Below, one piece after another: positions 31,788 through 48,368 of a stretch of DNA of 55,839 nt. The notes beneath the pieces are model-generated. The model did not search any database. It was not told the origin of the DNA and saw only the letters and a list, made by a program, of their open reading frames with translations. Source of the stretch: an uncultured Clostridia bacterium (GTDB taxonomy: Bacteria > Bacillota > Clostridia > Oscillospirales > QAMX01); NCBI GenBank assembly GCA_944376195.1, contig CALWBW010000009.1, positions 1 through 55,839 of the forward strand, written 5' to 3'. The translations under genes and the position numbers were made by a program. Position 1 is the stretch's first letter. Every line of letters starts with the position of its first letter.

Positions 31788-33197
31788 ATGAATGATCGCC
31801 CGAATGTACATTTTTTAAAAACGCCATTGGCGTGCTATATGTACGAGGTTAATACAAATCAGATGTTGAAAATTCCAGAGGAATTTTACTCAGGACTTCA
31901 GGAATATGTGAAAACAGGTATGGCTTCTGATGCGGTTATGAATTACGCAAATGCGTTAAAGGCGGAAGGATATCTCTCCAGCAATCGTCCTACGGAAATG
32001 GAACACCAGGAGAGCAAATTTTTGGACTTTCATCTGGGAACAAATGTGGAACAAATGACGTTGCAGGTGACCCAGCAGTGTAATTTCAGGTGTACCTATT
32101 GTACTTATGCACCGAAAGATTTTGAATATCAGCGCCAGCATTCTTCGAAACGGATGACGCTCGAGACTGCATTGAAAGCGGTTGACTTTTTTGCCGCACA
32201 TTCAGTGAAGCGGGAGCGTGTGGCTCTGGGCTTTTATGGCGGAGAACCTCTATTGGAATTAAATCTCATTCAGAAGATCGTCGCATACGCAGAAGAATTG
32301 TTTGATGGAAAAGATTTAATATTCCCGATTACAACAAACGGATCGCTGTTTACCAAAGATGTTGTGGATTTTATAAGCAAACACAATTTTAATGTGCTCA
32401 TCAGTCTTGATGGAACGCCGGAAATCCACAACAGATCAAGAAAGTTTGCGGCGACAGGAGAGGGAACTTATGAAGAAATTGAACGTAATCTGCGATATGT
32501 GCAGGAAAATTATCCAGACTTGTATGCAAGAATTTCATTCAATGTTGTGATCGATCCGCGCTATAGTTGCGTGGGGTTACATGAACTGTTTTCTCACCAT
32601 CCGCTATTTGTAAATGCCAATGTCAATTCCACATTGATTTCGGATGAAAGTTCAATGGAACATGTCACGGCGTCCGATCAATATATCTATGAAAATTCCA
32701 TATATTTATTTAAAGCGCTCATGGCGAAAAAAGACCGATATCCGCAGGAAAAGGCATCCAAAGTTGCCGTGGGAACCGTTGGAGCAAGAAGTGAAAGATT
32801 AAAAAAGAACATGAAGATATCCAAAGGACTGCCCGCGAAAATGTCTCATGGAGGACCGTGTATTCCGGGACAGAGAAGAGTGTTCGTAACTGTAGACGGA
32901 GATCTTTTCCCGTGTGAGCGAGTTAGTGAAACTTCAGAAGTAAACAAAATTGGCAATATCTATGATGGGTTCGATATTGACAAGGCAAGAGCCATACTCA
33001 ATATTGCGCAGTTGACGCCGGAGGAGTGCAAAAATTGCTGGGCGATTCGTCATTGTATGCAATGCGTCCGAGCATGCGACAACAATGGAGAGTTATCAAG
33101 AGAATTAAAACTTCATAACTGTGCAAGGGTGAGAAGTGAGGTTGAGGAGATTTTCAAGGAATATTTGATGTATAAGGAGTTAGGCTATGAACTTTGA
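31788..33197 (+). CDS. Radical SAM / SPASM peptide maturase, CcpM-like (Clo7bot system)
   Basis: The 469-residue protein has the radical SAM cluster C98-C102-C105 in QQCNFRCTYCTYAPK, then GFYGGEPLLE and ITTNGSL typical of the SAM-binding core. A C-terminal SPASM/twitch-like region supplies many cysteines (GGPCIPGQRR, DLFPCERVSE, CKNCWAIRHCMQCVRACDN, HNCARV), enough for two auxiliary Fe-S clusters. About 85 N-terminal residues form a small domain that may be a precursor-recognition element. This is the layout of the radical SAM maturases of Clo7bot/CLI_3235 Cys-rich peptides. The likely job is to crosslink or otherwise modify the Cys-rich core. AAGGAGGTG precedes the ATG; it overlaps the next gene by 11 nt. 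Confidence 0.9.
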   Translation: MNDRPNVHFLKTPLACYMYEVNTNQMLKIPEEFYSGLQEYVKTGMASDAVMNYANALKAEGYLSSNRPTEMEHQESKFLDFHLGTNVEQMTLQVTQQCNFRCTYCTYAPKDFEYQRQHSSKRMTLETALKAVDFFAAHSVKRERVALGFYGGEPLLELNLIQKIVAYAEELFDGKDLIFPITTNGSLFTKDVVDFISKHNFNVLISLDGTPEIHNRSRKFAATGEGTYEEIERNLRYVQENYPDLYARISFNVVIDPRYSCVGLHELFSHHPLFVNANVNSTLISDESSMEHVTASDQYIYENSIYLFKALMAKKDRYPQEKASKVAVGTVGARSERLKKNMKISKGLPAKMSHGGPCIPGQRRVFVTVDGDLFPCERVSETSEVNKIGNIYDGFDIDKARAILNIAQLTPEECKNCWAIRHCMQCVRACDNNGELSRELKLHNCARVRSEVEEIFKEYLMYKELGYEL

Positions 33198-34329
33198 AAA
33201 TTTGCAAGGCGGAAAGATATGCATATATCCCTACAGCGAAGAAGTTCAACCTTTGTTGAGACACCATACATTGCTATCCTCTGCATGGAAGGTGGCCTCA
33301 TTGGTCTCTCCCAGAAGCTGGGGATTTGTCGGGAGGGAATTCCGGTGCGGAAATGAAATTTTGAAGGTTGAACCGTCGCTTGAGCATTTGCCTGATGACA
33401 TCGATTATATCCTGATCCCGGAATTTTTTGAAAATTTAATGGAGACATCAATCGTAAAACGGATTTTATCGCGTGTTCTCCCGGTGCTTGGTAAGATACG
33501 CGGCATCATACTCTCGGCAGTTTTGGATGGGGAAAATTATGAAATGCTGAAAAGCGCTTGTGCGGGGATCTGCGAATTCATTGACGTGAGCGCAACGTCT
33601 TCGGATCCAGGACCGGTGCAGCAATTTGAAAAAAGGAAGGGCATACTGGAAATCGACGTCCCAGTCATCGGGATTATGGGAATGTGGGATGGTACGGATA
33701 AATTTGAAGTATCTTTGGCTCTTCGTGAGAAATTTTTAAAGGATGGTTACCAAGTCTCTCAAATTGGCTCGAGAAACTACTGCGAAATGATGGGCTTTCA
33801 CTCTTTCCCCCGGTTCATGCTGAATCCCACAGTGGGCGAGGAAGAAAAAATATATCAATTCAACCGGTATTTGAAACAGCTCGTTGAGGAGGAATCTCCG
33901 GATGTGATACTCATCACGATACCTGGCGGTACGCAGCAGCTCAATAATCAGTTCCCGAACCGGTTTGGCATTTTGCCCTTTTTGGTTTCCAAAGCGGTAG
34001 TATTCGACGCGCTGATATTGTGTACGATCTACGAACCGAATGCAGGAGAACTGTTTGAACTGATCTCGACTTCCTTCAAATATAAATACGGCTGCGAAGC
34101 TGATGCGTTCCATATGTCAAACATGGTATTTGATGTTGCGTCGATCAGCGAAAAGGAGGCAATGAGACTTCACCACATTGCAAGGAGCGACGTGGAAAAA
34201 GCCGTAAATGAGAACTATGCCGGCCTGGCAGCCCCGATGGTAGATGTCTATAGCGCCGGCGGGGCGGAAAAGTTATATCACACGATTGTTGATAAGCTCA
34301 CGGAAAATGTGGCTGACGCCATGTTATGA
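33187..34329 (+). CDS. Peptide maturation system protein, TIGR04066-like
   Basis: The 380-residue soluble protein starts inside the end of the radical SAM gene. I recognise it by context and pattern as the TIGR04066 partner of Clo7bot systems. Its centre (about residues 155-200) reads like a degenerate nucleotide-binding fold, VIGIMGMWDGTDKFEVSLALR, where a P-loop Lys-Ser/Thr would be expected but Lys-Phe is found. Later segments PDVILITIPGGTQQLNN and ILCTIYEPNAGELFELIS are typical alpha/beta strand-helix units. It probably helps the radical SAM step or precursor handling; function is unproven. GGAG lies 8 nt before the ATG. Confidence 0.75.
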   Translation: MNFENLQGGKICIYPYSEEVQPLLRHHTLLSSAWKVASLVSPRSWGFVGREFRCGNEILKVEPSLEHLPDDIDYILIPEFFENLMETSIVKRILSRVLPVLGKIRGIILSAVLDGENYEMLKSACAGICEFIDVSATSSDPGPVQQFEKRKGILEIDVPVIGIMGMWDGTDKFEVSLALREKFLKDGYQVSQIGSRNYCEMMGFHSFPRFMLNPTVGEEEKIYQFNRYLKQLVEEESPDVILITIPGGTQQLNNQFPNRFGILPFLVSKAVVFDALILCTIYEPNAGELFELISTSFKYKYGCEADAFHMSNMVFDVASISEKEAMRLHHIARSDVEKAVNENYAGLAAPMVDVYSAGGAEKLYHTIVDKLTENVADAML

Positions 34330-34343
34330 GGAGGGCGCATATA

Positions 34344-34619
34344 ATGCTGACGAAAAATAAGAATTTCACGCCTGAATGGATCTGTGCCGATATCCTGGGT
34401 ATTCTAAAAGAAAAATTTGACGTGAAGAAGCCCAAAGTACAGAGGTTTTTCGGGTTGGAAGGGTTGCTGGATGCCAGGGGGCTTGTCTATCTTGTTCATA
34501 TTCTGGAGGAGCGCTACGGCATCCGCTTTACCGCGGAGGATATGGACGAGGAACAATTTTACACGGTAGACGGCATGGCTGCTATGGTATCTTCGAAGTT
34601 ATGCCCGGAAGACCAGTGA
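34344..34619 (+). CDS. Acyl-carrier-protein-related protein lacking the attachment serine
   Basis: The 91-residue helical protein aligns with ACP: LLDARGLVYLVHILEERYGIRFTAED corresponds to ADSLDTVELVMALEEEF of a true ACP, and TVDGMAAMV to the last helix. The Asp-Ser-Leu site for 4'-phosphopantetheine reads Asp-Ala-Arg, so no prosthetic group can be attached there. It corresponds to the ACP-related family of the Clo7bot system. It may act as a docking or scaffold protein for the PaaK-like enzyme. The ATG at 34344 follows GAGGAGG by 9 nt, and an earlier ATG at 34326 overlaps the upstream stop. Confidence 0.8.
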   Translation: MLTKNKNFTPEWICADILGILKEKFDVKKPKVQRFFGLEGLLDARGLVYLVHILEERYGIRFTAEDMDEEQFYTVDGMAAMVSSKLCPEDQ

Positions 34620-34715: not shown

Positions 34716-34922
34716 ATGAAAAAGCTCAGGAAAGTCAAGACGAACCTGCAGGATTCCATTGAGGCGTATGAAGGAGCTTGTACTTGTTCGATAGGCTGCT
34801 CTTGCGTTGTCTGCGGCTGTCCGAATAATGATTTGAGTATCGACGTAGCTTATGACCCAACTTACGAAAATACGGAATCCACCAGTTTAAGCATTTCTCT
34901 TTCCCATTATAGTTGGGCTTAA
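34716..34922 (+). CDS. Clo7bot-family Cys-rich precursor peptide 1
   Basis: The 68-residue precursor has the conserved leader MKKLRKVKTNLQDSIEAY and then a core with six cysteines spaced CxC-xxx-CxC-xx-CxC (near residues 22-35). An acidic, Tyr-containing stretch follows, with a C-terminal tail SLSISLSHYSWA that resembles the VSTSLSSVHWS tail of the other two precursors. It is the first of three and lies behind the maturation genes. The strong site AAAGGAGG sits 8 nt before the ATG. The leader is the probable recognition element for the maturase, with cleavage likely near the EAY-Glu-Gly junction (inference). A GC hairpin follows. Confidence 0.92.
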   Translation: MKKLRKVKTNLQDSIEAYEGACTCSIGCSCVVCGCPNNDLSIDVAYDPTYENTESTSLSISLSHYSWA

Positions 34923-35008
34923 GCAACACATTTGATGGAGGCAAATGATCATTCTCTGACTGCTATTTAGGGAGGCATGCCAATTTATCTCACTTAGATA
35001 GCATGTGC

Positions 35009-35044
35009 CGGCAGAAGTGCGGCGGACGCGTCGCGCTTCTGCCG
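35009..35044 (+). repeat. Post-precursor GC-rich hairpin, copy 1
   Basis: A 16-bp stem (15 bp GGCAGAAGTGCGGCG with two wobbles plus one C-G pair) has a GACG loop. No U run follows, so it looks like a stabilising or attenuating hairpin between precursor 1 and the first solute-binding gene. Confidence 0.8.
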
Positions 35045-35091: not shown

Positions 35092-36462
35092 ATGAAAAAG
35101 ACTCGCTCCATAGCAGGCCTTCTTGCTGTCGTTCTCCTATTTTTGCTTCCATTTTCCGGGTGTGAGAAAGTCCCAGAACGTACGGAAGTACCCGCACCAA
35201 TCGAAGGGCCAAAACTCGCCGATCTTAAAGAGACAGACACTCTGGTGATTTATGTCATGCAAAGCTTTCAACGAACCTACATGCCCCAAATTGAGGCATT
35301 TCGCAAGGCCACCGGCGTAGACGTAGAGGTCGTAAGCGTAGTTGGGGAACCCGAAGAATTTACAGAACGAGTCATAAACGATATGGTAAGCGGCTCTGGC
35401 CCGGATGTTCTGTATTTTAGCGATTCTTTTAGAATGGATATCACAAAATCTGCATTAAACGGCAATTTTCTCGACTTGACTGATATTTTAGCGGAGGATC
35501 CGGACTTTTCCGAGGACGATTATATCGAGGGGGTGTTTGACGCCTGTCAGGTGAATGGACGGCAATATACAGTTCCAACATCGTATGATCTTCCGTTTGC
35601 ATTTTCTGTTGCGGAGACATTGGCGGATATTGGCTTTCGTTGGGATGGGATTGACACAATGTCTGATTTCATAGAAGAAATCGCACATCTGACTCCAGAA
35701 GCATCTGAAAATAATTCTGGGTTTCAGCAGATGATGAATAGCAAAAACTATTTTAAGATGTTGTACAGATATTCTGGTATTCGTCTGCTGGACTATGAAA
35801 ACGGTGTGGTACTACCGGATGAGAAGGAGCTGCGTGAATTTTTAGAGGCATATAAGCTATTTTTTCCATACGATTATGATGCGTCAGGAGCCTCTCAAAT
35901 CTGGAACAGGGTTGATCCCCTCTTGAGCGGTATCGCCGCTTTTTGGATCCCGTCCTTTCTTACAGGTATTGTTGATTCTATTAGTATCATGAAACTTGAA
36001 TCCCTTGCGTATGCCTATCGTGTAATTCCCAGCCAGACAGGGGAAATCGTCGCACGAATAAGTTCACAATTGGCAATCCCGGCAAATGCAAAAAACACGG
36101 CAAACGCCTATCGCTTTATCAAGTTTTTACTCTCGGAAGAGATGCAGCTGGATCAGAATGTACTTTTAGGGATGAAACCGATTCGCAAAAGTGCGATACA
36201 CAAAGTTATATATGAGACACCGGCACTTTATGAAAACCATGGGTTTTACCTTGATGATCCCGAAAACCTGGCTTTGACGGAGGATGAGGCTGTAGCACTC
36301 GAGGAGGCAATCACCAGTATTGACCGCTTTATGCAGGATGAACGGGTGGTGCTATCGAATATGTTGCAGGAGTCCATGCTGCCCTTCTTCCGGGACGAAG
36401 CAAGTTACGAGGACTGCCTTGCCGACCTCAAGAACAAACTGACGCTCTATTTAAGCGAGTGA
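35092..36462 (+). CDS. Extracellular solute-binding lipoprotein 1 (family 1)
   Basis: The 456-residue protein has a signal peptide with lipobox LPFSGC and then a family 1 (CUT1-type) binding protein: FQRTYMPQIEAFRKATGVDVEV, GSGPDVLYF, FLDLTDILAEDPDFSEDDY, the NGRQYTVPTS hinge segment and FIKFLLSEEMQ. The C-terminus is DEASYEDCLADLKNKLTLYL-SE, nearly identical in all six paralogues, with one Cys 20 residues from the end. It should be anchored outside the membrane and deliver a ligand to the MalF/MalG-type permeases encoded 12 kb downstream. It is closest to copy 2 over the whole length. AGAGGTG precedes the ATG. Confidence 0.9.
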   Translation: MKKTRSIAGLLAVVLLFLLPFSGCEKVPERTEVPAPIEGPKLADLKETDTLVIYVMQSFQRTYMPQIEAFRKATGVDVEVVSVVGEPEEFTERVINDMVSGSGPDVLYFSDSFRMDITKSALNGNFLDLTDILAEDPDFSEDDYIEGVFDACQVNGRQYTVPTSYDLPFAFSVAETLADIGFRWDGIDTMSDFIEEIAHLTPEASENNSGFQQMMNSKNYFKMLYRYSGIRLLDYENGVVLPDEKELREFLEAYKLFFPYDYDASGASQIWNRVDPLLSGIAAFWIPSFLTGIVDSISIMKLESLAYAYRVIPSQTGEIVARISSQLAIPANAKNTANAYRFIKFLLSEEMQLDQNVLLGMKPIRKSAIHKVIYETPALYENHGFYLDDPENLALTEDEAVALEEAITSIDRFMQDERVVLSNMLQESMLPFFRDEASYEDCLADLKNKLTLYLSE

Positions 36463-36533
36463 CGCGCCGCGCTTCTGCCGGGGACCCCATAACCGTTTCC
36501 AGGATGATCCCTTTAGAGAAAGAGGTGTTATCT
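36463..36533 (+). repeat. Inter-gene repeat between binding lipoproteins 1 and 2
   Basis: The segment starts with CGCGCCGCGCTTCTGCCGG, which is the right arm of the post-precursor hairpin without its left arm, then CCCCATAACCGTTTCCAGG and the ribosome site. Nearly the same 70-71 nt recur at 41625 and 43063. Confidence 0.85.
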
Positions 36534-37880
36534 ATGAAAAATCGCCGTATTTTATCCGCGTTTCTTGCCGTCTCCCTGCTGCTCCTCCTTTTTACCGGGT
36601 GCGCGAAAATACCCGAATCTGCCAAAGGCCCCGGGTTTGACGATCTGGTGGAAACAGACACCTTAGTTGTTTATTTAATGCAACGTTTTCAACGAACCTA
36701 CATGTACCAAATTGAGGCCTTTCAGAAGGCCACCGGGGTAGATGTAGAGGTTGTAAGTGTGATCGGGGAGCCCGAAGCATTTACGGAACGTATTATCAAC
36801 GATCTTACGAGTGGTTCCGGCCCGGATGTGCTGATTTTTGACGATACATTTATGATGGACGTTACGAAATCTGCATTAAACGGCAGTTTTCTTGATTTGA
36901 CTGATGTTTTGGCGGAGGATCCGGAGTTTTCAAAAGATGATTACCTGGATGGCGTATTTGAAGCCTGTCAGGTAAACGGACGGCAATACACGATTCCGAC
37001 GTCATATGATTTCCTGTTGGCATTTTCTCTTACAGAAATGCTGGCGGATATCGGGTTCAGCTGGGATGGCATTGATACAATGGCGGATTTTTTGGAAGAG
37101 ATTGCACGTTTAACGCCGGAGGCTGCGGAACTTCCGAAATTTCAGCAAATGCTGAACAGTAAAAATTTTTATTGGAAACTGTACAGGTATGCCGGCATCC
37201 GCCTATTGGATTATGAGAATGGCGTTGTACTGCCGGATGAGGAAGAATTACGCGAATTTTTGGAAGCCTATAAGCTGTATTTTCCATATGATTACGATGC
37301 GTCAGGAGCCTCTCAGACCTGGATCAGAGTAGATCCGCTCTTGAATGGTACGGCCGCTTTTTGGATAACACATTATCTTACAGGGATCGTGGATTCTATC
37401 AGTATCTTGAAACTTAAATCCAGAGAGTATACCTATCACGCGATTCCCAGCCAGACAGGAGAAATTGTCGCACGGATCGGCTCGCAGCTGGCGATTCCGG
37501 CTAATGCAAAGAATACTGCAAATGCCTATCGGTTTATCAAGTTTTTGCTCTCCGAAGAAATACAGGTGGATCAGCTTTTACTTATGGGGGTAAAACCGAT
37601 TCGCAAAAGTGCGATACATAAAGTCATATATGAAAGTCCGGCGTTTTATGAAAACCATGGGTATTACATTGAAGATCCTGAAAATTTTGCTTTGACAGAG
37701 GACGAGGCAAAAGCACTGGAAGAGGTGATGCTCAACATCGATCGTTTTGTGCAGGATGAGAGACTTGTAGTGCCGGAAATGATGTTCGAGTCCATGATGC
37801 CCTTCTTCCGGGATGAGGCAAGCTACGAGGACTGCCTTGCCGACCTCAAGAACAAACTGACGCTCTATTTGAGCGAGTGA
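36534..37880 (+). CDS. Extracellular solute-binding lipoprotein 2 (family 1)
   Basis: The 448-residue paralogue of copy 1 has lipobox LLFTGC, a shorter acidic linker, FQRTYMYQIEAFQKATGVDVEV and GSGPDVLIFDD. The ligand-side segments NGRQYTIPTSYDF and DYENGVVLPDEEELREFLEA are almost as in copy 1, making this pair the most recent duplicates of the array. The ATG at 36534 follows AGAGGTG; the longer frame from 36459 overlaps the previous stop and is not used. The stop is followed by CGGGATGCGTGCGCGCGA, an 18-nt element found again only after copy 6, in both cases where the next gene is not a binding protein. Confidence 0.9.
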   Translation: MKNRRILSAFLAVSLLLLLFTGCAKIPESAKGPGFDDLVETDTLVVYLMQRFQRTYMYQIEAFQKATGVDVEVVSVIGEPEAFTERIINDLTSGSGPDVLIFDDTFMMDVTKSALNGSFLDLTDVLAEDPEFSKDDYLDGVFEACQVNGRQYTIPTSYDFLLAFSLTEMLADIGFSWDGIDTMADFLEEIARLTPEAAELPKFQQMLNSKNFYWKLYRYAGIRLLDYENGVVLPDEEELREFLEAYKLYFPYDYDASGASQTWIRVDPLLNGTAAFWITHYLTGIVDSISILKLKSREYTYHAIPSQTGEIVARIGSQLAIPANAKNTANAYRFIKFLLSEEIQVDQLLLMGVKPIRKSAIHKVIYESPAFYENHGYYIEDPENFALTEDEAKALEEVMLNIDRFVQDERLVVPEMMFESMMPFFRDEASYEDCLADLKNKLTLYLSE

Positions 37881-38000
37881 CGGGATGCGTGCGCGCGACG
37901 TGAAAAGAAAATCAGGATAAAGCAAATGAGTAAAAACAGCCCATATATACATATACAGGGGAAATTGGTGCCCGGTATAAAAACAAAGGAGGAAGGAAAC

Positions 38001-38222
38001 ATGAAAAAACTCAGAAAAGTCAAGACGAACCTGCAGGATTCCGTTGAGGCGTATGCTGGCAGTTGTACCTGTGAGCCCAATTGCTATTGCTCTTGTAATT
38101 GCTATTGTTCTACTGAACACCAGTCAGTGATTGATGCTGTAGAGCCGCAGAGTTCTACATTTTATCAAAACCAAGAATTTGTTGGTGTAAGTACTTCTCT
38201 TTCCAGTGTACATTGGTCTTAA
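38001..38222 (+). CDS. Clo7bot-family Cys-rich precursor peptide 2
   Basis: The 73-residue precursor has leader MKKLRKVKTNLQDSVEAY and a core of seven cysteines, SCTCEPNCYCSCNCYCSTE, five of them in an unbroken C-x-C-x-C ladder. The tail is EFVGVSTSLSSVHWS, identical over its last 13 residues to precursor 3. The leader DNA is nearly identical to the other copies while the core differs. AAAGGAGG lies 8 nt before the ATG at 38001; the earlier in-frame ATG at 37926 is not used. It is placed between binding lipoproteins 2 and 3. Confidence 0.92.
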   Translation: MKKLRKVKTNLQDSVEAYAGSCTCEPNCYCSCNCYCSTEHQSVIDAVEPQSSTFYQNQEFVGVSTSLSSVHWS

Positions 38223-38307
38223 AATTGCGCTCATCAAGAAAGTAAACGTTTATTTGCCAGCTGCTATTTAGGAAAGCAATGAAATTTGCTACGTCTAAAT
38301 AGCAATG

Positions 38308-38347
38308 CCCGGCAGAAGCGCGGCGGACGCGCCGCGCTTCTGCCGGG
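38308..38347 (+). repeat. Post-precursor GC-rich hairpin, copy 2
   Basis: A perfect 18-bp stem CCCGGCAGAAGCGCGGCG with a GACG loop. A weaker upstream hairpin, GCTATTTAG...CTAAATAGC (38265-38303), precedes it, as after precursor 1. No U run is seen, so it may slow transcription or protect the 5' or 3' RNA piece. Confidence 0.85.
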
Positions 38348-38392
38348 GAAAAAGTATGAGCATGAATGAGTTCAAAGAAAAAGGTGTTTTCT

Positions 38393-39769
38393 ATGAAGAC
38401 GACGCATATTCTGTCGCTGGGATTGGCGGCAATACTGCTTCTGCTCCCCTTAGCTGCCTGTCAACAGAAAGAGGACGAAACTTCCACATCTGTCGATACG
38501 CTCGAGCTCGTTGAAAGCCTCACGTATGACGAATTGACTCCTACTGCTTCACTGGTATTGTATGTTCCAGTATCAGCGGAAGCGCAAATACAGCCCTTGA
38601 TCAATCGGTATCAAACGTTTTACGAGGTCGAGGTGGAAGTTGTACGCGTAGATGGCGATTATGAGGCATATGCAGAACGTGTAGCAAATGATCTTGCAAG
38701 TGGGAAAGGCCCGGATGTACTGTTTTTAGATTATCTTGATATAGACATTGCAAAGGCCGCGCTGAACAACAATTTTCTTGATCTGACTGATATTTTAGCG
38801 GAAGACCCGGACTTTTCGGAAGACGATTACCTGGACGGTGTGTTTGAGGCGGGCTGTTTCTATGGGAGGCAATATACAATCCCTACTTCGTTTTTCTTGC
38901 CTCTTCTTCTTTCCGCCCAAACAAAGCTGGAAGAATTGGGCTTTCATTGGGATCAAATAGAAACAACATCGGACTTTTTAGAAGAAATTTCTTGTCTGAC
39001 GCCATACGCGCAACAGAGCCCATCTTTTCAGCAAATGATGCAATCGAAGAATTATGTTGGGATGTTGAACTTAGCATCAGGCATCAGTCTGCTTGACTAT
39101 GAAAAAAACACGGTACTACCGGACGAAGGAGCGCTTCGCGAATATCTCCAGGCCTACAAGGCATATTTCCCATATGATTATGATGAGACGGGACGTTCTA
39201 CTTTATCTAACTTTGGCGCAGATAATCTTGTTCGGGGGAAATACCTTTTCTGGTTGGGCAGTTTAATGATTGCAGATTTAACCTGGAATATGGATGCGCT
39301 GATAGAGGCCTCTTGCGGTTACGCGCTTTCCGTCTTGCCAAGTCAAACAGGCGACATCGTTGGAAGCATAGACGGACAAATGGCCATCAACGTAAATACA
39401 AAGAATCCATTAAACGCATATCGCTTCATCAAAATGATGCTGTCCGCAGATGTACAGAGTAGCAGAAACCCACTTCTTAGTTATGTACCGATTCACAAAG
39501 AGGCCATAAAAGCGATTATATCCGGTACATATACCTTTGATGTCGCAGGGACGACATATGGAGGACGCCAGAGTGCCTACCTCACTGAGGAGGAATTGGA
39601 TACGATCATTGAGACGCTCACCGCAGTCGACCAGTTTACCCAACCGGCATCCGCAAGTGTTAACAATATAATGTGGGAAACCATGCTCCCCTTCTTCCGG
39701 GATGAGAAAAGCTACGAGAACTGCCTTGCCGACCTCAAAAACAAGCTGATGCTCTATTTAAGCGAGTGA
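38393..39769 (+). CDS. Extracellular solute-binding lipoprotein 3 (family 1)
   Basis: The 458-residue family member is the most divergent of the six in the first 150 residues (lipobox LPLAAC, then YVPVSAEAQIQPLINRYQTF). It keeps FLDLTDILAEDPDFSEDDYL, GRQYTIPTSFF, and the conserved end KSYENCLADLKNKLMLYLSE including the late Cys. The middle differs strongly from the neighbours, pointing to a different ligand. It directly follows precursor 2 and its hairpin. The ATG at 38393 has AAAAGGTG upstream; the in-frame ATG at 38366 has no site. Confidence 0.88.
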   Translation: MKTTHILSLGLAAILLLLPLAACQQKEDETSTSVDTLELVESLTYDELTPTASLVLYVPVSAEAQIQPLINRYQTFYEVEVEVVRVDGDYEAYAERVANDLASGKGPDVLFLDYLDIDIAKAALNNNFLDLTDILAEDPDFSEDDYLDGVFEAGCFYGRQYTIPTSFFLPLLLSAQTKLEELGFHWDQIETTSDFLEEISCLTPYAQQSPSFQQMMQSKNYVGMLNLASGISLLDYEKNTVLPDEGALREYLQAYKAYFPYDYDETGRSTLSNFGADNLVRGKYLFWLGSLMIADLTWNMDALIEASCGYALSVLPSQTGDIVGSIDGQMAINVNTKNPLNAYRFIKMMLSADVQSSRNPLLSYVPIHKEAIKAIISGTYTFDVAGTTYGGRQSAYLTEEELDTIIETLTAVDQFTQPASASVNNIMWETMLPFFRDEKSYENCLADLKNKLMLYLSE

Positions 39770-39879
39770 CGATTATGTGTGTACAGTGCAAAAAATCAAA
39801 ATAAAGTACTGAATAAGCAATTAATATTGGTACAGAAATGAAAATTATGGCCTGTTCGAATTAAAAGGAGGAAAGAAAC

Positions 39880-40101
39880 ATGAAAAAACTCAGGAAAGTC
39901 AAGACGAACCTGCAGGATTCCATCGAGGCGTATGAAGGCGCTTGTGATTGTGCCCCCAATTGCAACTGTCATTGCAATTGTGCTTGTTCTAATGTGAATC
40001 CAACTGTTACAAGTCGCACGAATACAGGTTATACTACAGCAGCTAATACTCAGGAATTCGTTGGTGTAAGTACTTCTCTTTCTAGTGTACATTGGTCTTA
40101 A
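39880..40101 (+). CDS. Clo7bot-family Cys-rich precursor peptide 3
   Basis: The 73-residue precursor has leader MKKLRKVKTNLQDSIEAY and seven cysteines at the same spacing as precursor 2 (ACDCAPNCNCHCNCACSN). The residues between the cysteines change (Asp, Asn and His in place of Thr, Tyr and Ser). A variable Thr/Asn-rich middle follows, then the tail EFVGVSTSLSSVHWS. The strong site AAAGGAGG precedes the ATG. It lies between binding lipoproteins 3 and 4. Conserved leader and tail with a variable core is the usual picture of a precursor family made by one shared maturase. Confidence 0.93.
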   Translation: MKKLRKVKTNLQDSIEAYEGACDCAPNCNCHCNCACSNVNPTVTSRTNTGYTTAANTQEFVGVSTSLSSVHWS

Positions 40102-40182
40102 GCTGTGGCTTAATTAAGTAAGTCGATGTAATCTGGTTGTGATTTGAGGAGAACGATACAGATTCGCTTAAGTAGCAGACGA

Positions 40183-40218
40183 CGGCTGAAGCGCGACAGG
40201 TTTGCCGCGCTTCAGCCG
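40183..40218 (+). repeat. Post-precursor GC-rich hairpin, copy 3
   Basis: A 13-bp stem CGGCTGAAGCGCG / CGCGCTTCAGCCG with a 10-nt loop. Compared with copies 1 and 2, compensating changes (GCAGAA to GCTGAA with TTCTGC to TTCAGC) keep the pairing, which supports a functional RNA structure. Confidence 0.8.
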
Positions 40219-40265
40219 GGAAAGCCAAGAATCAGCATGAATGAATTCTAAGAAAGAGGTATCGC

Positions 40266-41624
40266 ATGAAAAAGTCTCGTATTATTGCATTATTCCTTAT
40301 CATGGTGCTGCTACTCCTCCTTTTCACCGGGTGCGCGAAAACACCCGACCGCGCGGAGGAATCTGAGCCCGTCGAAGGCCCCGGGCTTGACGATCTGGTG
40401 GAAACGGATTCGCTGGTGATCTATATCATGAAAGGCAATGAAACGCTTGAACAGCGCCGGATCAACCAGTTTACCGTACTCTACGATGTAGATGTGGAAG
40501 TCGTGCGCGTGGCGGCAGATGAGTATCAGGAACGTGTTATGAATGATCTCGCAGGTGGTTCCGGCCCGGATATCCTGTTTTTAAATGATCTATATTCTCT
40601 GGATTTTACGAAAGCTGCTTTAAACGGGAATTTTCTCGATCTGACTGATATTTTAGCGGAGGATCCAGAGTTTTCGAAAGACGATTATCTGGATGGCGTC
40701 TTTGAAGCCTGCCAGGTGAATGGGCGGCAGTATATAGTACCGTTTTCATGCATGATGCCGCTTGAAATATCGTCCGAGGAATCATTGCAAAAGTTGAGTT
40801 TTGATTGGAGTGAGATCGAGACAACGTCAGATTATATTAATGCGCTTGCGCGCATGACACCTGTGGCAACAAAAGATCTTGGCTTTTCAAGTATGCTTTT
40901 CTCAAAAAATAATTTCTATGCCCTGTTTTCAAGCAGTGGTATTCAACTTTTGGATTATAAAAATGGTGATGTTTTACCAGACGAAGAAGGATTGCGTGAA
41001 TTCATGGAAGCCTATAAAGCATTTTTCCCATATGACTATGATGAAGCAGATGGATCCAGCTTTGCAAACTATGATTCTTATATGCTTAGCTCAGGGACAA
41101 TTGCGTTCTTTGAGCCTATTTCTATTGAAGGCATAACCTCAACAATAAACTGTATGAAGCTTGATTCCTGCGATTATGTACTGCAGGCGTGTCCTGGTCA
41201 ATCCGGCGAGGTCATAAAAAGCATATTCGGACAGATAGCAATAAACGCAAATTCAAAAAACACCTTAAATGCTTATAAATTTGTCAAATATATGCTGTCA
41301 AAAGAGGCACAGTCGGATCCTTACATGATTTATTACATGCCAATTAGCAAAGACGCAATCCATAATAGCATTCATGGTGCAAATGCGCTGTATGAAGCCA
41401 ACGGTTATTATTTTAACGATTACGACAATCTTGCGTTTTCTGAAGAAGAAGCAAACATGATAGAAGCGGAGATCACTAAGGGCGATCAGTTTGTTCGGAT
41501 GATGCCTTTAAATGTATTTAATATGGTGCAGGAATCCATGCTGCCCTTCTTCCAAGACGAGGCAAGCTACGAGACCTGCCTTGCCGACCTCAAGAACAAG
41601 CTGACGCTTTATTTGAGCGAGTGA
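40266..41624 (+). CDS. Extracellular solute-binding lipoprotein 4 (family 1)
   Basis: The 452-residue copy has lipobox LLFTGC and the block CAKTPDRAEESEPVEGPGLDDL shared with copy 5 almost letter for letter. A divergent ligand half follows (MMPLEISSEESLQKLSFDW, ITSTINCMKLDSCDYVLQACPG). It retains NGRQYIVPFS, and its C-terminal DEASYETCLADLKNKL retains the late Cys. Between the lipobox and about residue 190 it switches several times between being close to copy 2 and close to copy 5, consistent with gene conversion. AGAGGTA lies before the ATG. Confidence 0.88.
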   Translation: MKKSRIIALFLIMVLLLLLFTGCAKTPDRAEESEPVEGPGLDDLVETDSLVIYIMKGNETLEQRRINQFTVLYDVDVEVVRVAADEYQERVMNDLAGGSGPDILFLNDLYSLDFTKAALNGNFLDLTDILAEDPEFSKDDYLDGVFEACQVNGRQYIVPFSCMMPLEISSEESLQKLSFDWSEIETTSDYINALARMTPVATKDLGFSSMLFSKNNFYALFSSSGIQLLDYKNGDVLPDEEGLREFMEAYKAFFPYDYDEADGSSFANYDSYMLSSGTIAFFEPISIEGITSTINCMKLDSCDYVLQACPGQSGEVIKSIFGQIAINANSKNTLNAYKFVKYMLSKEAQSDPYMIYYMPISKDAIHNSIHGANALYEANGYYFNDYDNLAFSEEEANMIEAEITKGDQFVRMMPLNVFNMVQESMLPFFQDEASYETCLADLKNKLTLYLSE

Positions 41625-41694
41625 CGCGCCGCGCTTCTGCCGGGACCCCATAACCGTTCCCGGGATGATCCATTTTGAGAAAGAGGTGTTTCCT
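41625..41694 (+). repeat. Inter-gene repeat between binding lipoproteins 4 and 5
   Basis: A near-identical copy of the element at 36463: half-hairpin CGCGCCGCGCTTCTGCCGG, CCCCATAACCGTTCCC and the ribosome site GAAAGAGGTG. Confidence 0.85.
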
Positions 41695-43062
41695 ATGAAA
41701 AGCCGCCGTATTTTATCTGCGTTTCTTGCCGTCTCTCTGCTGCTCCTCCTTTTTACCGGGTGCGCGAAAACACCCGACCGCACGGAGGAATCTGAGCCTG
41801 TCGAAGGGCCCGGGCTTGACGATCTGAAAGCAACGGACTCGCTGGTAATCTATACGTATACGGGAGCTGATGTACTTGATCAACGCCGGATCAATCAATT
41901 TATTGCGATTTACGGTGTGGATGTAGAAGTTGTACGCGTGGACGGGAAAATTCCTGAATACACCGAACGAGTCATGAATGATCTGGCCAGCGGCTCCGGC
42001 CCGGATGTTCTGTTTGTGGATGACCTTTACAGCGCGGATATCGCAAAAATTGCTTTGAACGGAAGCCTCCTCGATCTGACCAATGTTTTGGCGGAGGATC
42101 CTGATTTTTCCGAGGAGGATTATGTCGAGGGTGCCTTTGAGGCTGGACAATTTCACGGACGGCAGTATGTGATTCCACTGGCATTTGAAGCGCCAGTTTT
42201 GCTATCTTCCACGGAAAAATTGGATGAGCTTGGATTTGATTGGGACGGTATTGAGACTACCGAGGATTTTGTAGAAAATTTAGGGCTCCTGACACCTGCT
42301 GCAGAAGAAACCCCCGGGTTTGAGAGGATGTTGGACTCACAGAACCGTTTTTCTCAGTTGCTGATTACCTCGGGCATTACTTTAATTGACTATGAAACCG
42401 GCGAAGTGTTGCCGGAAGAGGAGGAACTGCGCGAATTTCTCGAGGGATACAAGGCGTATTTTCCATATGATTATAACGAGACAGGGAGCACTTATCTTGT
42501 AGGTATGGGTCATGAAGGACTTCTTTCGGATAAATGGAGTTTTTGGCTTGCGCCAACTGTTTCCTGTTTAACTGAATCGATATCTATATTGAAAAATGCG
42601 TCCTGTGATTACACTATGCATTTAATCCCTAGTCAAACAGGAGAAACTGTAGCGAATATACGTGGCGGGGCAATGGCGATCCGGGCTAATACGGAAAACT
42701 CCCTAAACGCATACAATTTTATTAAGTTTATGCTGTCTGCAGATGCGCAAAGTGACCAATTTATACTTCCCGGCTACATGCCAATTCGCAAAGAGTCAAT
42801 TCAAAAAATCATATATAATGCCCCCTCGATGTATCAAAACAACGGATATTACTTTTATGATTCCGAGAACCCGGCACTTACAGACGAAGAAGCGGAAATG
42901 CTCATAGAAATGTTCACCGGGATCGACCGGTTTGTCCTGGGGCTCCCTGTCATGTCAACCATGGTGCAGGAGTCGATGCTGCCATATTTCCAGGACGAGG
43001 CAAGTTACGAGGACTGCTTTGCGGACCTCAAGAACAAACTGACGCTTTATTTAAGCGAGTGA
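41695..43062 (+). CDS. Extracellular solute-binding lipoprotein 5 (family 1)
   Basis: The 455-residue copy has signal peptide RRILSAFLAVSLLLLLFTGC nearly the same at DNA level as copy 2, then the linker of copy 4. The ligand-binding body is distinct (FEAGQFHGRQYVIPLAFEAP, FERMLDSQNRFSQLLITSG, WLAPTVSCLTESISILKN). It ends DEASYEDCFADLKNKLTL-YLSE with the late Cys. The ATG at 41695 follows AAGAGGTG; the in-frame ATG at 41665 lies within the repeat and is not used. It probably supplies a third or fourth ligand specificity to the common permease pair. Confidence 0.88.
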   Translation: MKSRRILSAFLAVSLLLLLFTGCAKTPDRTEESEPVEGPGLDDLKATDSLVIYTYTGADVLDQRRINQFIAIYGVDVEVVRVDGKIPEYTERVMNDLASGSGPDVLFVDDLYSADIAKIALNGSLLDLTNVLAEDPDFSEEDYVEGAFEAGQFHGRQYVIPLAFEAPVLLSSTEKLDELGFDWDGIETTEDFVENLGLLTPAAEETPGFERMLDSQNRFSQLLITSGITLIDYETGEVLPEEEELREFLEGYKAYFPYDYNETGSTYLVGMGHEGLLSDKWSFWLAPTVSCLTESISILKNASCDYTMHLIPSQTGETVANIRGGAMAIRANTENSLNAYNFIKFMLSADAQSDQFILPGYMPIRKESIQKIIYNAPSMYQNNGYYFYDSENPALTDEEAEMLIEMFTGIDRFVLGLPVMSTMVQESMLPYFQDEASYEDCFADLKNKLTLYLSE

Positions 43063-43132
43063 CGCGCCGCGCTTCTGCCGGGACCCCATAATCGTTTCCA
43101 GGATGATCCCTTTAGAGAAAGAGGTGTTTTCT
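43063..43132 (+). repeat. Inter-gene repeat between binding lipoproteins 5 and 6
   Basis: The third copy of the half-hairpin/ribosome-site element described at 36463, one nucleotide shorter than that copy and differing from it by few substitutions. Confidence 0.85.
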
Positions 43133-44485
43133 ATGAAAAACCGCCGTATCCTATCTGCGTTTCTTGCCGCTGTCTTCCTGATTCTCAGTTTTTCTGGATG
43201 TGAAAAAAAGAAGGCACCGGAACCATTGACCTATGGCGAACTAAACGAGACGGATACGCTGGTGTTGTATGTGTTACAAGAACAAGAGAGCATTTTCCGT
43301 AGCATTGCTGCCAGATTTACAGCGAGCACCGGGATTACACCGGAGCTTTTAGTCGTAGATGGGGACCTGGATGTATACCAGGAACGTGTTGCAGCCGATC
43401 TTGCAGCCGGTTCCGGTCCGGATGTGTTGTTCCTCTATTATCTGGATAATCTCGATGTTGCAAAAGCAGTGCAAAACTATAATTTTCTCGATTTGACAGA
43501 GATTCTCGCCACCGATCCGGAATTCTCTGAGGAGGATTTTGTGGATGGGGTCTTTGAGGCGGGGAAGTTTAACGGACGGCAGTATACCGTACCGCAATCT
43601 TTTTATTTGCCATTCTATCTTTCGTCAGGGACAAAGTTGGATGTTTTGGAAGATCAGGATTTTGAATGGGAAGAAATTAACACGACTTCAGAATTCATGG
43701 AAGAAATGGGACGTCTGACACCGCTTGTAGAGGAACTGCCGTCTTTCCTTCGAATGATGCAGTCATGGAATTTTGCATCCAGGTTTTTTCAGAATTCCGG
43801 GATTCGTCTGATTGACTACGATAATGGCGAGATCCTTCCGAATGAGGAGAGTTTGCATGCATTCATGGAAGGATACAAGGCCTATTATCCGTATGATTAC
43901 GACGGAACAGGGGTATCCTGGTGGGAAAGTCGCGGTTCGCAGTATCTTTTGCATGGGTCATATTATTTCTTTAACACCAATTGGAGTCAGGATTTGCTTC
44001 AGGATATTGATGACCTGATTGAGGCGGGGCATGGATATGAGCTGCATGTTATGCCTAGTCAAGCCGGCGATGTAGTCGGACGGATCACCGGACAAATGGC
44101 GATTAACGCAGCAACGCAAAACACGATGAATGCCTATAAATTTATTCAATATATGTTGTCTGAGGAAGAACAGAGCAGTGGAAGCGCGCTGATCAAACCC
44201 GTTCCGATTCGAAAAGATTCGATTCGCGCAATCGTACATGGAGAATACACAAAAATGGCGATTTCGATCAGCATTCCCGGATATAAAAGCGAATATCTTA
44301 CAGAAGAGGAGATGGACAAAATCGTGGAGATGCTTATGAGTGCCGACCGTTACATACAAGATGATCCACGGGCCACTTTGGAAATGATGTGGGAGTCGAT
44401 GCTGCCATATTTCCAAGACGAGGCAAGCTACGAGGACTGCCTTGCCGACCTCAAGAATAAGCTGACGCTCTATTTAAGCGAGTGA
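43133..44485 (+). CDS. Extracellular solute-binding lipoprotein 6 (family 1)
   Basis: The 450-residue copy has lipobox LSFSGC, a shorter basic linker (EKKKAPEPLTYGEL) and a family 1 body with GSGPDVLFLYYLDN, GRQYTVPQSFYLPF and FIQYMLSEEEQ. It keeps the C-terminal DEASYEDCLADLKNKLTL with the late Cys. Several aromatic residues in the putative pocket differ from the other copies (WWESRGSQYLLHGSYYFF). It is the last of the array, and its stop is followed by the 18-nt boundary element CGGGATGCGTGCGCGCGA before the exporter gene. Confidence 0.88.
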   Translation: MKNRRILSAFLAAVFLILSFSGCEKKKAPEPLTYGELNETDTLVLYVLQEQESIFRSIAARFTASTGITPELLVVDGDLDVYQERVAADLAAGSGPDVLFLYYLDNLDVAKAVQNYNFLDLTEILATDPEFSEEDFVDGVFEAGKFNGRQYTVPQSFYLPFYLSSGTKLDVLEDQDFEWEEINTTSEFMEEMGRLTPLVEELPSFLRMMQSWNFASRFFQNSGIRLIDYDNGEILPNEESLHAFMEGYKAYYPYDYDGTGVSWWESRGSQYLLHGSYYFFNTNWSQDLLQDIDDLIEAGHGYELHVMPSQAGDVVGRITGQMAINAATQNTMNAYKFIQYMLSEEEQSSGSALIKPVPIRKDSIRAIVHGEYTKMAISISIPGYKSEYLTEEEMDKIVEMLMSADRYIQDDPRATLEMMWESMLPYFQDEASYEDCLADLKNKLTLYLSE

Positions 44486-44520: not shown

Positions 44521-46338
44521 ATGACAAAATCTATGAAAAAGCTTACGCAGTTATTCAAGGACTTTGGCCTTGTATTACGTTTTAGTCTCAGAATTTCTTA
44601 TAAATCCTCACCAAAATATTTTATAATTCGCATTTTGGTAGACCTTGCAAATATTGTGCTGCCTTTTGCCACGATCTCTCTTAATGGATATCTGGTGGAC
44701 TTGCTCACACAGGGCGGCTCTTCGCCGGATGTTCTTGCGCCTCTTTTATTTCTTGTATTGCTTGCGCTTGCGGTCAAGGGCGCAAACAGTATATCAAATA
44801 CTATTTTAACTTACTGCGACGGCATGCACCGGGAACTCCTGACGCAATTTAACAGGTCGGAAATCATCAAAACGGTGGCGGATATCGATCTGTCGTTTTT
44901 TGATTCCAACGAGTTTTATAACGAGCTTAGCGATGCAAATGCAAATGCGATGACTGTTTCATTCGCGGCTTTCCAAGCAATGAATTTTTTCCGATCTTTC
45001 ATTCAATTGGTGATCTCTGTGGTTTACATTTCCACGTTCAGTCTGGTTTACGCCGTGCTGCTTATCGCAAGCGGAGTTCCAAACATTATTTTTAGTATCC
45101 GGCAGCTCAATCTGATTTACTCTTGGCGGCGGGATAATTTATCGAACGAACGAAAAATTTCCTACGTTTCCAGCCTGGCGACCCAGAGGTATTATGCGAA
45201 AGATATCAGGTTTTATGGTTTGTCTTCCTACATCATGCAAAAATATGCGGATTTGTTTCGAACCTGGTTCTCTGAAAAACGATCGGTTTCCTATAAGAGT
45301 ACGGTCTTTCTCTGTGTGGCCTCTTTGCTCCCGGAGGTTATGACCGCGGTTATCACCTTTCGCCTGGGGGTATCCATCCTAGAAGGGCAATTGTTGGTGG
45401 GCGATTTCGTTCGTTACACAGGATTGATCGGCCAGCTGCTTACCAGCATGTATTCTGCAATTCGCTATCTCAGTGATTTGAATGACGCCAGGGTGAAAAT
45501 AAAAAATTACGTCAAACTCCTCAACTGGGAGACGAGCGTTGAAAAATCTGGGGCAAGTTTGGTCCCTGACGGTCCGCTCAATTTTGAATTTCGCCATGTG
45601 TCGTTTTCCTATTTGGACCATCTCCCGAAGGTTTTGACTGACGTAACCTTCTCTTTCACAGACAAAGAAAAAATTGCGCTTGTCGGCCAAAACGGCTCCG
45701 GTAAATCAACCATAATCAAACTGTTGATGCGCTTTTATGATCCCACCGAGGGGGAAATTCTACTCAATGGCAAAAACCTGAAGGAATATGATTTGCGTTC
45801 GCTCAGGCGGTGTTTCAGCACGCTGTTTCAGGATTATTGTAACTATGCGTTTACGGTAAAAGAATCTACCATGCTTGCGGATAATAACGCTTTGCATGAC
45901 GAAAGTAAAGTAAAAGACGCACTTTGTAAGAGCGGAGCGATGGAATTTGTCAGGAATTTTCCAAAGGGAATTGACAGTTATCTTACAAGAGGATATGATG
46001 AGGATGGAGTGGAAATGTCTGGCGGACAATGGCAGAAAATGGCGCTTGCGCGCACCTTTTACCGGGACGCCCCGATTTACATATTGGATGAACCGTCTGC
46101 TGCGCTGGATGCGCAGTCCGAGGATAAACTGTTTAAAGACTTTGAAAAACTGTATCGGGACAAGGGTGCGTTGCTCATTTCACACCGGTTATCTAATGTG
46201 GTGAGCGCGGATCGAATTTTGGTGCTTGAAAACGGAAAAATCATCGAAGCGGGAACGCACCGGGAACTGATGCGGCAAAACGGGCAATACGCCAAAATGT
46301 TTCAATTGCAGGCTGATAAATATAGGGAGAAGGATTGA
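44521..46338 (+). CDS. ABC exporter (membrane domain plus ATPase) of the peptide cluster
   Basis: The 605-residue half-transporter has six membrane helices in its first 330 residues and then an ATPase with Walker A GQNGSGKST, signature MSGGQWQKMALARTF, Walker B IYILDEPSAALD and switch His in LLISHRLSNV. No N-terminal C39 peptidase domain is present, so leader removal must be done by another protein, most likely the subtilase encoded next. A homodimer should export the mature Cys-rich peptide. The start at 44521 has AGGGGAA very close; an ATG at 44533 is an alternative. It is separated by 3 nt from the protease gene. Confidence 0.9.
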   Translation: MTKSMKKLTQLFKDFGLVLRFSLRISYKSSPKYFIIRILVDLANIVLPFATISLNGYLVDLLTQGGSSPDVLAPLLFLVLLALAVKGANSISNTILTYCDGMHRELLTQFNRSEIIKTVADIDLSFFDSNEFYNELSDANANAMTVSFAAFQAMNFFRSFIQLVISVVYISTFSLVYAVLLIASGVPNIIFSIRQLNLIYSWRRDNLSNERKISYVSSLATQRYYAKDIRFYGLSSYIMQKYADLFRTWFSEKRSVSYKSTVFLCVASLLPEVMTAVITFRLGVSILEGQLLVGDFVRYTGLIGQLLTSMYSAIRYLSDLNDARVKIKNYVKLLNWETSVEKSGASLVPDGPLNFEFRHVSFSYLDHLPKVLTDVTFSFTDKEKIALVGQNGSGKSTIIKLLMRFYDPTEGEILLNGKNLKEYDLRSLRRCFSTLFQDYCNYAFTVKESTMLADNNALHDESKVKDALCKSGAMEFVRNFPKGIDSYLTRGYDEDGVEMSGGQWQKMALARTFYRDAPIYILDEPSAALDAQSEDKLFKDFEKLYRDKGALLISHRLSNVVSADRILVLENGKIIEAGTHRELMRQNGQYAKMFQLQADKYREKD

Positions 46339-46341
46339 ACT

Positions 46342-47502
46342 ATGCGCTGGGCCATACTAGATGACGGCGTGAATTTAGCGCTTCCCGCAATTGTTCAAGA
46401 TCTTGAAATAGACCGCTATGGCATGGTGAAAAAAAGAATCTCGAAGTCGACGTCCGATCATGCGACGATTTGTTTCAAAATCATACAAAAATATGCCGGT
46501 ACGCTGTTTGATGTAGTAAGCATTAAAATTTTAAATGATGATACCCGCCGGGGCAATAAAGACGCGCTGATTGCTGCATTCCGTTGGTGCATGGAAAACG
46601 GGATCCGGCTGATTCATATGAGCATCGGAACGACGGACCCCCGTGACGGAGAGGAAATACGGACCTTGATTGGGGAACTTACCGCTCGTGGGATCATCAT
46701 TGTCGCGGCGAATAGTAATAAAGGCGTACAAACATACCCTGCCTATGAGAATCGTGTTATTGGCGTAGAGTGTGATGCGACGTTGCGGGATGATCAGTTT
46801 GTATATACGCCTAATGCGTTGAACGGTATGATGTTCCGCGCCTCATCCCGTCACCGGATTGCGGGGGGGCCTGTCCCGATAACGTCTTTTGCCAATTCTT
46901 TCGCCGCGCCGCTGATTACGGCGCAGCTTCTCAAACTGGCGGAGCGTGAAAGATGCTTTTCTTATGCCCGTGCGGTTGAATGGCTGCGGGAAAACGCGGT
47001 TCGCACGGATGAAAGGGTGCTGTTCTCTCTGCCGCACAACGTAGAAAAGGCGGTGGTAATTGCGCTTTTGGGGTTGGACAGAGTCTTAACACGACAGTTG
47101 ATGACAGAATGGAAGACGTTATTCAGAAAGGACGGCTATGTGTGTTGTATGTCCGCGCCTGCGGAATGGCTGATCCCGGAGGCGGAGGTGATTCCTCCCC
47201 GGATGACACAAGGCCGTTATCTGGATTGGGCGGCGCGATTTTTCTCTTGTGAGGTGATTTTGGCTGCGTTGACGGAAGAAGAACTGGACGGAGCAGAAAC
47301 AGAGATTGATTTGCTTGTCACGTGCAATGCGAGTAGAATTCCCCCTGCTTATCATGAAGCGGTCATTTACACGGAATCCGACGGGACTGTGCGCAGTTCC
47401 GACGAATTATATCAAGAACTGATTTCCATATTGACGGAGGAGGAAACACCTATGAAACTGATTGAAGACCGCAGCATGCCGACCATCTGGGCAGAACCAT
47501 GA
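46342..47502 (+). CDS. Subtilisin-like (S8) serine protease, probable leader peptidase
   Basis: The 386-residue protein has no signal peptide and a subtilase core with D7 in AILDDGV, H40 in SDHATICF, N124 in IIVAANSNKG as oxyanion residue, and S186 in ANSFAAP. The usual HGT and GTSMAAP motifs are degenerate (DHAT, FANSFAAP), but all triad residues are in place. The C-terminal 180 residues match no domain I know and may bind the precursor. Placed right behind the exporter, it is the best candidate to cut the leader in the cytoplasm. Its end overlaps the permease start (ATGA). Confidence 0.82.
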   Translation: MRWAILDDGVNLALPAIVQDLEIDRYGMVKKRISKSTSDHATICFKIIQKYAGTLFDVVSIKILNDDTRRGNKDALIAAFRWCMENGIRLIHMSIGTTDPRDGEEIRTLIGELTARGIIIVAANSNKGVQTYPAYENRVIGVECDATLRDDQFVYTPNALNGMMFRASSRHRIAGGPVPITSFANSFAAPLITAQLLKLAERERCFSYARAVEWLRENAVRTDERVLFSLPHNVEKAVVIALLGLDRVLTRQLMTEWKTLFRKDGYVCCMSAPAEWLIPEAEVIPPRMTQGRYLDWAARFFSCEVILAALTEEELDGAETEIDLLVTCNASRIPPAYHEAVIYTESDGTVRSSDELYQELISILTEEETPMKLIEDRSMPTIWAEP

Positions 47503-48368
47503 AAAAGGGAAGCTTGGCGCGCCGGGAAGCGCGCATAGGATGGTGTTACGCGGCGCTGCCGCTTTGCGGGTTTGCCGTGTTTTTCCTGGTGCCTTTTCTC
47601 ATCAGTATCCTGCGTTCGTTTCAAAAAGGCCTGACCCAGGAGTTTGTCGGACTCGAAAATTATGCCGAACTGCTGCAAAGCGAGGCATTCCGTACCGCCG
47701 CGATCAATACGCTGCGTTTTATTGCATTCGCCGTACCGTTAAATGTGCTGATCGGTCTGCTGATTGCCCTGGCGCTGTACCGGCTGATTGCACGAGCCTC
47801 GTTTTTCCGTACGGTCTTTCTGATCCCTTATGTTATTCCGGTATCCGCAACCGTGATGTTTTTCCAGATTCTCTTTGAGCGTTCCGGTTTCATTAATACC
47901 GTTTTGCGGATGATTGGTGCGGAACCGGTCTCGTTTCTTGACAGCTCAAACGCGTTCTATATCCTTTTGTTATTATATTTATGGAAAAATTTTGGATATA
48001 ACATGGTGCTTTTTCTGGCGGGACTCTCCCGTATCCCGCGGGATTACAGCGATGCGGCGTGTATTGACGGTGCAGGAACGCTCCAAACTTTCTGGTATAT
48101 CACGATGCCTCTGCTTGCCCCCACGTTTTTCTTTGTTTTCGTCATCAGTATCATGAACTCTTTCAAGGTATTCCGAGAGGCCTATGCCCTGGGCGGCGAG
48201 TATCCGCACGAGAGCATCTATATGCTGCAGCATTTCATGAACAATAATCTGCTAAACCTGAATTATCAGCGCGTATCCACGGCGTCGCTTTATGTCTTTG
48301 TCGTCATTGTGCTGCTGGTGCTGCTGCTCTACCTCCGGAGACAGAAGAAGGGAGAGTATCAACTATGA
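47499..48368 (+). CDS. Sugar-type ABC importer permease (MalF/UgpA-like)
   Basis: The 289-residue protein has six membrane helices and the cytoplasmic EAA loop DAACIDGAGTLQTFWYITMPLLAP, which docks on an ATPase. N-terminal WCYAALPLCGFAVFFLVPFLISI is typical of CUT1 permeases. It pairs with the next gene, with a 4-nt overlap. No MalK/MsmX-type ATPase lies in the window, so a shared ATPase encoded elsewhere is likely. The six binding lipoproteins upstream are its probable partners. The ATG overlaps the protease stop, so translation is coupled. Confidence 0.92.
   Translation: MKKGSLARREARIGWCYAALPLCGFAVFFLVPFLISILRSFQKGLTQEFVGLENYAELLQSEAFRTAAINTLRFIAFAVPLNVLIGLLIALALYRLIARASFFRTVFLIPYVIPVSATVMFFQILFERSGFINTVLRMIGAEPVSFLDSSNAFYILLLLYLWKNFGYNMVLFLAGLSRIPRDYSDAACIDGAGTLQTFWYITMPLLAPTFFFVFVISIMNSFKVFREAYALGGEYPHESIYMLQHFMNNNLLNLNYQRVSTASLYVFVVIVLLVLLLYLRRQKKGEYQL

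Follow-up and report, generated by a model that had tools for sequence, protein, structure and literature searches.

Sactipeptide clusters of the SacP23 / CLI_3235 family have been described in Paenibacillus polymyxa (PMC10731318). They share with the locus studied here, which lies in a stretch of 55,839 nucleotides (the window, taken at its full length), a CcpM-type radical SAM maturase, a TIGR04066 protein, an acyl-carrier-related protein, a Cys-rich CLI_3235-family precursor, and an ABC transporter. Unlike SacP23, the window has three precursors set among six binding lipoproteins, with importer-type permeases downstream; the available portion of the SacP23 description mentions neither a binding-protein array nor hairpins (PMC10731318). 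A sactipeptide-like cluster of Roseburia intestinalis has TIGR04068, TIGR04066, TIGR04069, a subtilase, and an ABC transporter together, as does the window. It consists of five genes, and a binding-protein array is not named in the available portion of its description (PMC4573289). Our literature search returned nothing that links binding-protein arrays with CcpM clusters or that describes half-hairpins of the kind reported below.

The host is a gut-type bacterium, and the region in question is a radical SAM peptide cluster (Table 1). The CcpM maturase, the TIGR04066 protein, and a small acyl-carrier-related protein are encoded upstream of the precursors. Three Cys-rich CLI_3235-family precursors (P1 to P3) then alternate with six binding lipoproteins (S1 to S6) in the order P1-H1-S1-half-S2-P2-H2-S3-P3-H3-S4-half-S5-half-S6, with H1 to H3 being full hairpins and "half" a half-hairpin. 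Downstream of S6 follow an ABC exporter, a subtilase-type protease, two binding-protein-dependent permeases, and a MacB-like protein; the importer-type permeases thus come after exporter and protease. The assignment to the CLI_3235 / CcpM family rests on the TIGR04068 maturase, the three precursors (TIGR04065, cut-off 26 bits), and the TIGR04066 protein, all of which reach their cut-offs. TIGR04069 is a usual companion that we do not treat as required, and the candidate for it scores below its cut-off although position and size fit. Genes for a response regulator and a histidine kinase (28165-29876), which are possible regulators, lie upstream of the cluster.

Table 1. Features of the cluster, with positions in the window.
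Feature	Position	Strand	Score or remark
CcpM-type radical SAM maturase (TIGR04068)	31788..33197	+	524.7 bits, cut-off 500
TIGR04066 peptide maturation system protein	33187..34329	+	281 bits, cut-off 200
Acyl-carrier-related protein, TIGR04069-like	34326..34619	+	20.6 bits, below cut-off 70
Cys-rich precursor 1 (CLI_3235 family)	34716..34922	+	30.1 bits, cut-off 26
Full hairpin H1, loop GACG, two G-U pairs	35009..35044	+	
Binding lipoprotein S1 (SBP_bac_1)	35092..36462	+	Pfam 61.2 bits
Half hairpin 1, stop codon + GACG + right arm	36460..36482	+	no fold, z +0.58
Binding lipoprotein S2; body sister of S1, 5' block common to S5 and S6	36534..37880	+	
Block-end flank CGGGATGCGTGCGCGCG, present after S6 too	37881..37897	+	
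Cys-rich precursor 2	38001..38222	+	27.9 bits
Full hairpin H2, perfect 18-bp stem, loop GACG	38308..38347	+	
Binding lipoprotein S3	38393..39769	+	
Cys-rich precursor 3	39880..40101	+	32.8 bits
Full hairpin H3, loop GGTT, two compensatory pairs, one A-C mismatch	40183..40218	+	
Binding lipoprotein S4	40266..41624	+	
Half hairpin 2	41622..41644	+	z -0.10
Binding lipoprotein S5; 5' block like that of S2	41695..43062	+	
Half hairpin 3	43060..43082	+	z -0.21
Binding lipoprotein S6; body sister of S3	43133..44485	+	
ABC exporter, membrane + ATPase	44521..46338	+	
Subtilase-type protease	46342..47502	+	PF00082 23.8 bits; QhpE model 88.5 bits, below cut-off 165
Two binding-protein-dependent permeases	47499..49228	+	PF00528 61.4 and 39.9 bits

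Hairpins between precursors and binding genes

A full hairpin follows each precursor (3/3), as the first-pass annotation had claimed. The GACG loop that it had assigned to all of them is present in H1 and H2 and replaced by GGTT in H3. The arms of H1 pair as RNA through two G-U wobbles and do not form a perfect DNA palindrome. Compared with shuffled sequences, the three full-hairpin regions gave folding z-scores of -5.48, -7.58, and -3.44, whereas the three half junctions fold no better than shuffles (Table 1). Among the three stems, two pairs are compensatory, with both sides changed, and two are held by G-U wobble. Pair covariation was not above that of column shuffles (90 to 162 of 500 reached the observed value), three sequences being too few. 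Within the genus a stable hairpin was found at all precursor-to-binding-gene boundaries (4/4), and no hairpin was found at five boundaries between two binding genes (three in the window, compared with shuffles, and two in a congener, assessed by single folds and without a long stem).

We hypothesize that the full hairpin acts as an RNA element that separates the short message of each precursor from the downstream binding gene. Such an element could protect the 3' end of the precursor message or attenuate transcription partially, and the precursor would then be made in excess.

Other identities of the hairpin were considered and rejected. A covariance model of the hairpin matched, in its own genome, only the three array hairpins (E <= 0.001), and a dispersed REP-like repeat was rejected on the grounds that the hairpin occurs at these three places only. 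As to a genome-wide repeat, the 14-nt core of the arm, CGCGCTTCTGCCGG, was found exactly only once outside the array (C7:25741), inside an open reading frame and with no hairpin of at least 12 bp around it. A search of Rfam gave no relevant match. Intrinsic terminators were rejected since the stems are present but lack a T run, the sequences after the three stems being GAGAAAC, GGAAAAAG, and GGAAAGCC, and they do not appear among the listed + strand terminators. A second hairpin, rich in A+T (TGCTATTTAGG...CTAAATAGCA), immediately precedes the G+C-rich one downstream of precursors 1 and 2 (34959-35006 and 38262-38304), and is degenerate after precursor 3.

Half-hairpin junctions and mosaic binding genes

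Between binding genes 1/2, 4/5, and 5/6 only the right arm occurs, joined through GACG to the stop codon, exactly as first described. At these three places the 23-nt sequence TGACGCGCCGCGCTTCTGCCGGG overlaps the stop codons of S1, S4, and S5, and no left arm is present. It corresponds to the loop plus the right arm of the hairpin found between precursor and next binding gene; the right arm is identical in H2, and H1 and H3 carry close variants. With up to 3 mismatches allowed, the 14-nt core matches the window 35 times (8.6 expected), so the half-hairpin sequence is not due to chance. No exact match of the 23-nt junction was found in viral contigs.

The 3' ends of the six binding genes all read GAGTGACG. 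GACG is present at all six stop codons, including the three without an arm, and is thus as much a part of the binding-gene end as of the loop. The 3' flank GGGATGCGTGCGCGCGA is common to S2 and S6, and the flank of S3 resembles a diverged version of it. Each block consists of a full hairpin, a gene, any further half-hairpin and gene pairs [full hairpin - gene - (half - gene)n], and the original flank. We rejected the idea that S1, S4, and S5 inherited their 3' ends together: their last 60 nt are 91.1% identical within the group and 90.9% across groups, with no added similarity.

The half arms of spacers S45 and S56 are unchanged with respect to the right arm of H2 (21/21 columns) while the remaining spacer differs at 25 and 22 of 51 columns. 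Recent copying is the simple reading of this identity, and constraint is possible. Under constraint, the half arms would be working elements kept by selection, perhaps as a landing site, pairing with the left arms of the precursor hairpins or bound by a protein. The unchanged arms within diverged spacers are what this predicts; however, the half sites do not fold, every left arm already has a right arm of its own at a distance of 4 nt, and recent copying accounts for the identity of the three half arms. We therefore regard working half arms as very improbable. Slimmer still is the prospect that they are selected as unpaired partners, with the right arm before a binding gene either pairing with the left arm that follows a precursor or being bound in trans. 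If true, it would tie binding-protein output to precursor output.

To compare histories along the genes, the 5' block was defined as arm, spacer, and first 23 codons (codon columns 1-23), and the body as codon columns 57 to the end. In the 5'-block tree S2, S5, and S6 group together (97/96), whereas the body tree joins S1 with S2 (100/100) and S3 with S6 (98/98). Topology tests rejected an S2+S5+S6 clade in the bodies (p-AU = 9e-43) and an S1+S2 clade in the 5' block (p-AU = 0.017). Spacer identity is 90-96% among those preceding S2, S5, and S6, and 56-69% between these and the three full-hairpin spacers. Maximum-chi-square breakpoints fell in codon columns 14-56 and not at GACG (0 of 2000 permutations reached any of the eight tests), with switch points at columns 14-15 (S6, and S2 and S5 against S6), 23-32 (S5), and 53-56 (S2). 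S2, S5, and S6 carry a nearly identical module of arm, spacer, and signal peptide, joined to bodies that are unrelated. As spacer and gene trees conflict and the breakpoints lie in signal-peptide codons, the moving piece is arm, spacer, and signal peptide, and not a whole unit. The longest exact repeat within the array is 47 nt, which short reads could span, and collapse of the array at assembly, or an assembly artefact as the source of its structure, is therefore unlikely.

These data bear on the unit proposed in the first-pass annotation, i.e. right arm, spacer, and binding gene up to GACG, duplicated by slippage or recombination at the hairpin loop, and on its reading as a separate duplication at each half site. 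The 4-nt GACG microhomology, the sister bodies of S1 and S2, and the block-end flanks retained at S2 and S6 all agree with such a unit. The conflict between the 5'-block and body trees does not, nor do the breakpoints in signal-peptide codons. S5 and S6 are not unit duplicates of their neighbours: S4+S5+S6 as a clade was rejected with both data sets (bodies, p-AU = 0.009; 5' block, p-AU = 0.001), and the body of S6 pairs with that of S3, which contradicts the proposal for gene 6. Separate duplications at each half site are accordingly improbable, and repeated slippage at the loop gives way to a single event with later copying.

Origin of the half junction

Short-homology duplication and gene conversion are known to shape tandem gene arrays. 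The array in the window resembles such arrays in a founding junction with a 4-nt overlap and in later exchange of segments between copies. It is unlike them in that the junction uses an RNA hairpin loop, so that the scar is visible as a half-hairpin.

The half junction consists of a binding-gene end, GACG, and the right arm, with exactly 4 nt common to both parents. For random breakpoints in the array an overlap of 4 nt would arise by chance with a probability of approximately 0.018. We hypothesize that the half junction arose once, when the right arm, spacer, and binding gene of block 1 would have been duplicated through the GACG match between the loop and the binding-gene end. The left arm and the precursor would lie outside the duplicated piece, leaving the second gene without a working hairpin. 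Retention of the original 3' flank by S2 and S6 is a prediction of tandem duplication, and duplication in block 1 fits both the sister bodies of S1 and S2 and the weak grouping of the half spacers with S01. This grouping has a support of 74/74 only and spacer S12 is just 60% identical to S01, and the donor block is thus not fixed. The junction, with spacer and signal-peptide codons, would subsequently have been copied to the other block by homologous recombination, onto unrelated bodies. The mosaic structure is observed directly, and the direction of copying is deduced. The half-hairpin is probably a scar left by a single short-homology event and then spread within the array by recombination, and the half arm itself would be a relic without a fold of its own.

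Deletion would yield exactly the same junction sequence. An ancestral array of complete blocks may have lost precursor and left arm between the post-stop GACG and the loop GACG at each half site, and slippage deletion is known to occur where a palindrome adjoins short direct repeats. Deletion requires extra events, however, namely block duplication and then loss, and the three near-identical half spacers would still call for one origin followed by copying. No precursor remnant is present at the half sites, although an exact deletion would leave none. Both routes agree with the sequences; parsimony favours duplication, and we consider deletion rather unlikely. The whole explanation, comprising duplication via GACG in block 1, later copying of the junction, and a hairpin acting as RNA element, is one we hold with moderate confidence. 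We regard the array as a product of ordinary array evolution within a peptide cluster of the SacP23/CLI_3235 type.

Relatives and the place of the binding proteins

A scan of GTDB contigs gave matches only in one congener, the Oscillospiraceae MAG SIG497 (G001, SVLW01000003.1), at two loci. Its array has two binding genes, a precursor, a hairpin, and two further binding genes, and contains neither half arms nor GACG after the stops. The hairpin between precursor and binding gene differs in sequence from those of the window and occupies the same place (z = -3.99). The precursor lies inside the binding-gene array (L042, 6399-12457), and CcpM is below cut-off in this genome (best 135 bits); the precursor is either an orphan or its maturase is missing from the MAG. 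In two clusters of a more distant relative than the congener (G241), binding genes stand in tandem, and every one of them has a complete hairpin of its own behind it. The precursor gene in these clusters is bracketed by inverted repeats of 13 nt and 12 nt, approximately 230-275 nt apart (L086, 9930-10275; L085, 9600-10020). The first-pass annotation had predicted that junctions in related strains coincide with the loop. All binding-gene/binding-gene junctions examined in the relatives (4/4) lack loop and half arm, which contradicts this prediction in part, as these are other species and not strains.

Binding genes adjoin four of the eight TIGR04066 loci from the same order (L084-L087 among L082-L089), with L082, L083, and L088 lying near contig ends. 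This count leaves out L090-L092, which were fetched for a binding-protein match alone, and L093 and L094, which have weak TIGR04066 matches and no binding-protein match. At the class level 2 of 20 loci had binding-protein-like matches, of odd length or fragmented, and were left out of the counts. A set of binding protein, permease, and permease also adjoins CcpM in L087, and permeases are present in L084 too.

The array in the window shows how a family of binding lipoproteins is shuffled within a radical SAM peptide cluster, with constant regulatory and signal-peptide ends and changing bodies, and it corrects the use of half-hairpins as markers of a duplication unit. Since binding proteins repeatedly adjoin the maturases, in half of the loci counted, the data suggest that binding or uptake belongs to the CcpM peptide system.
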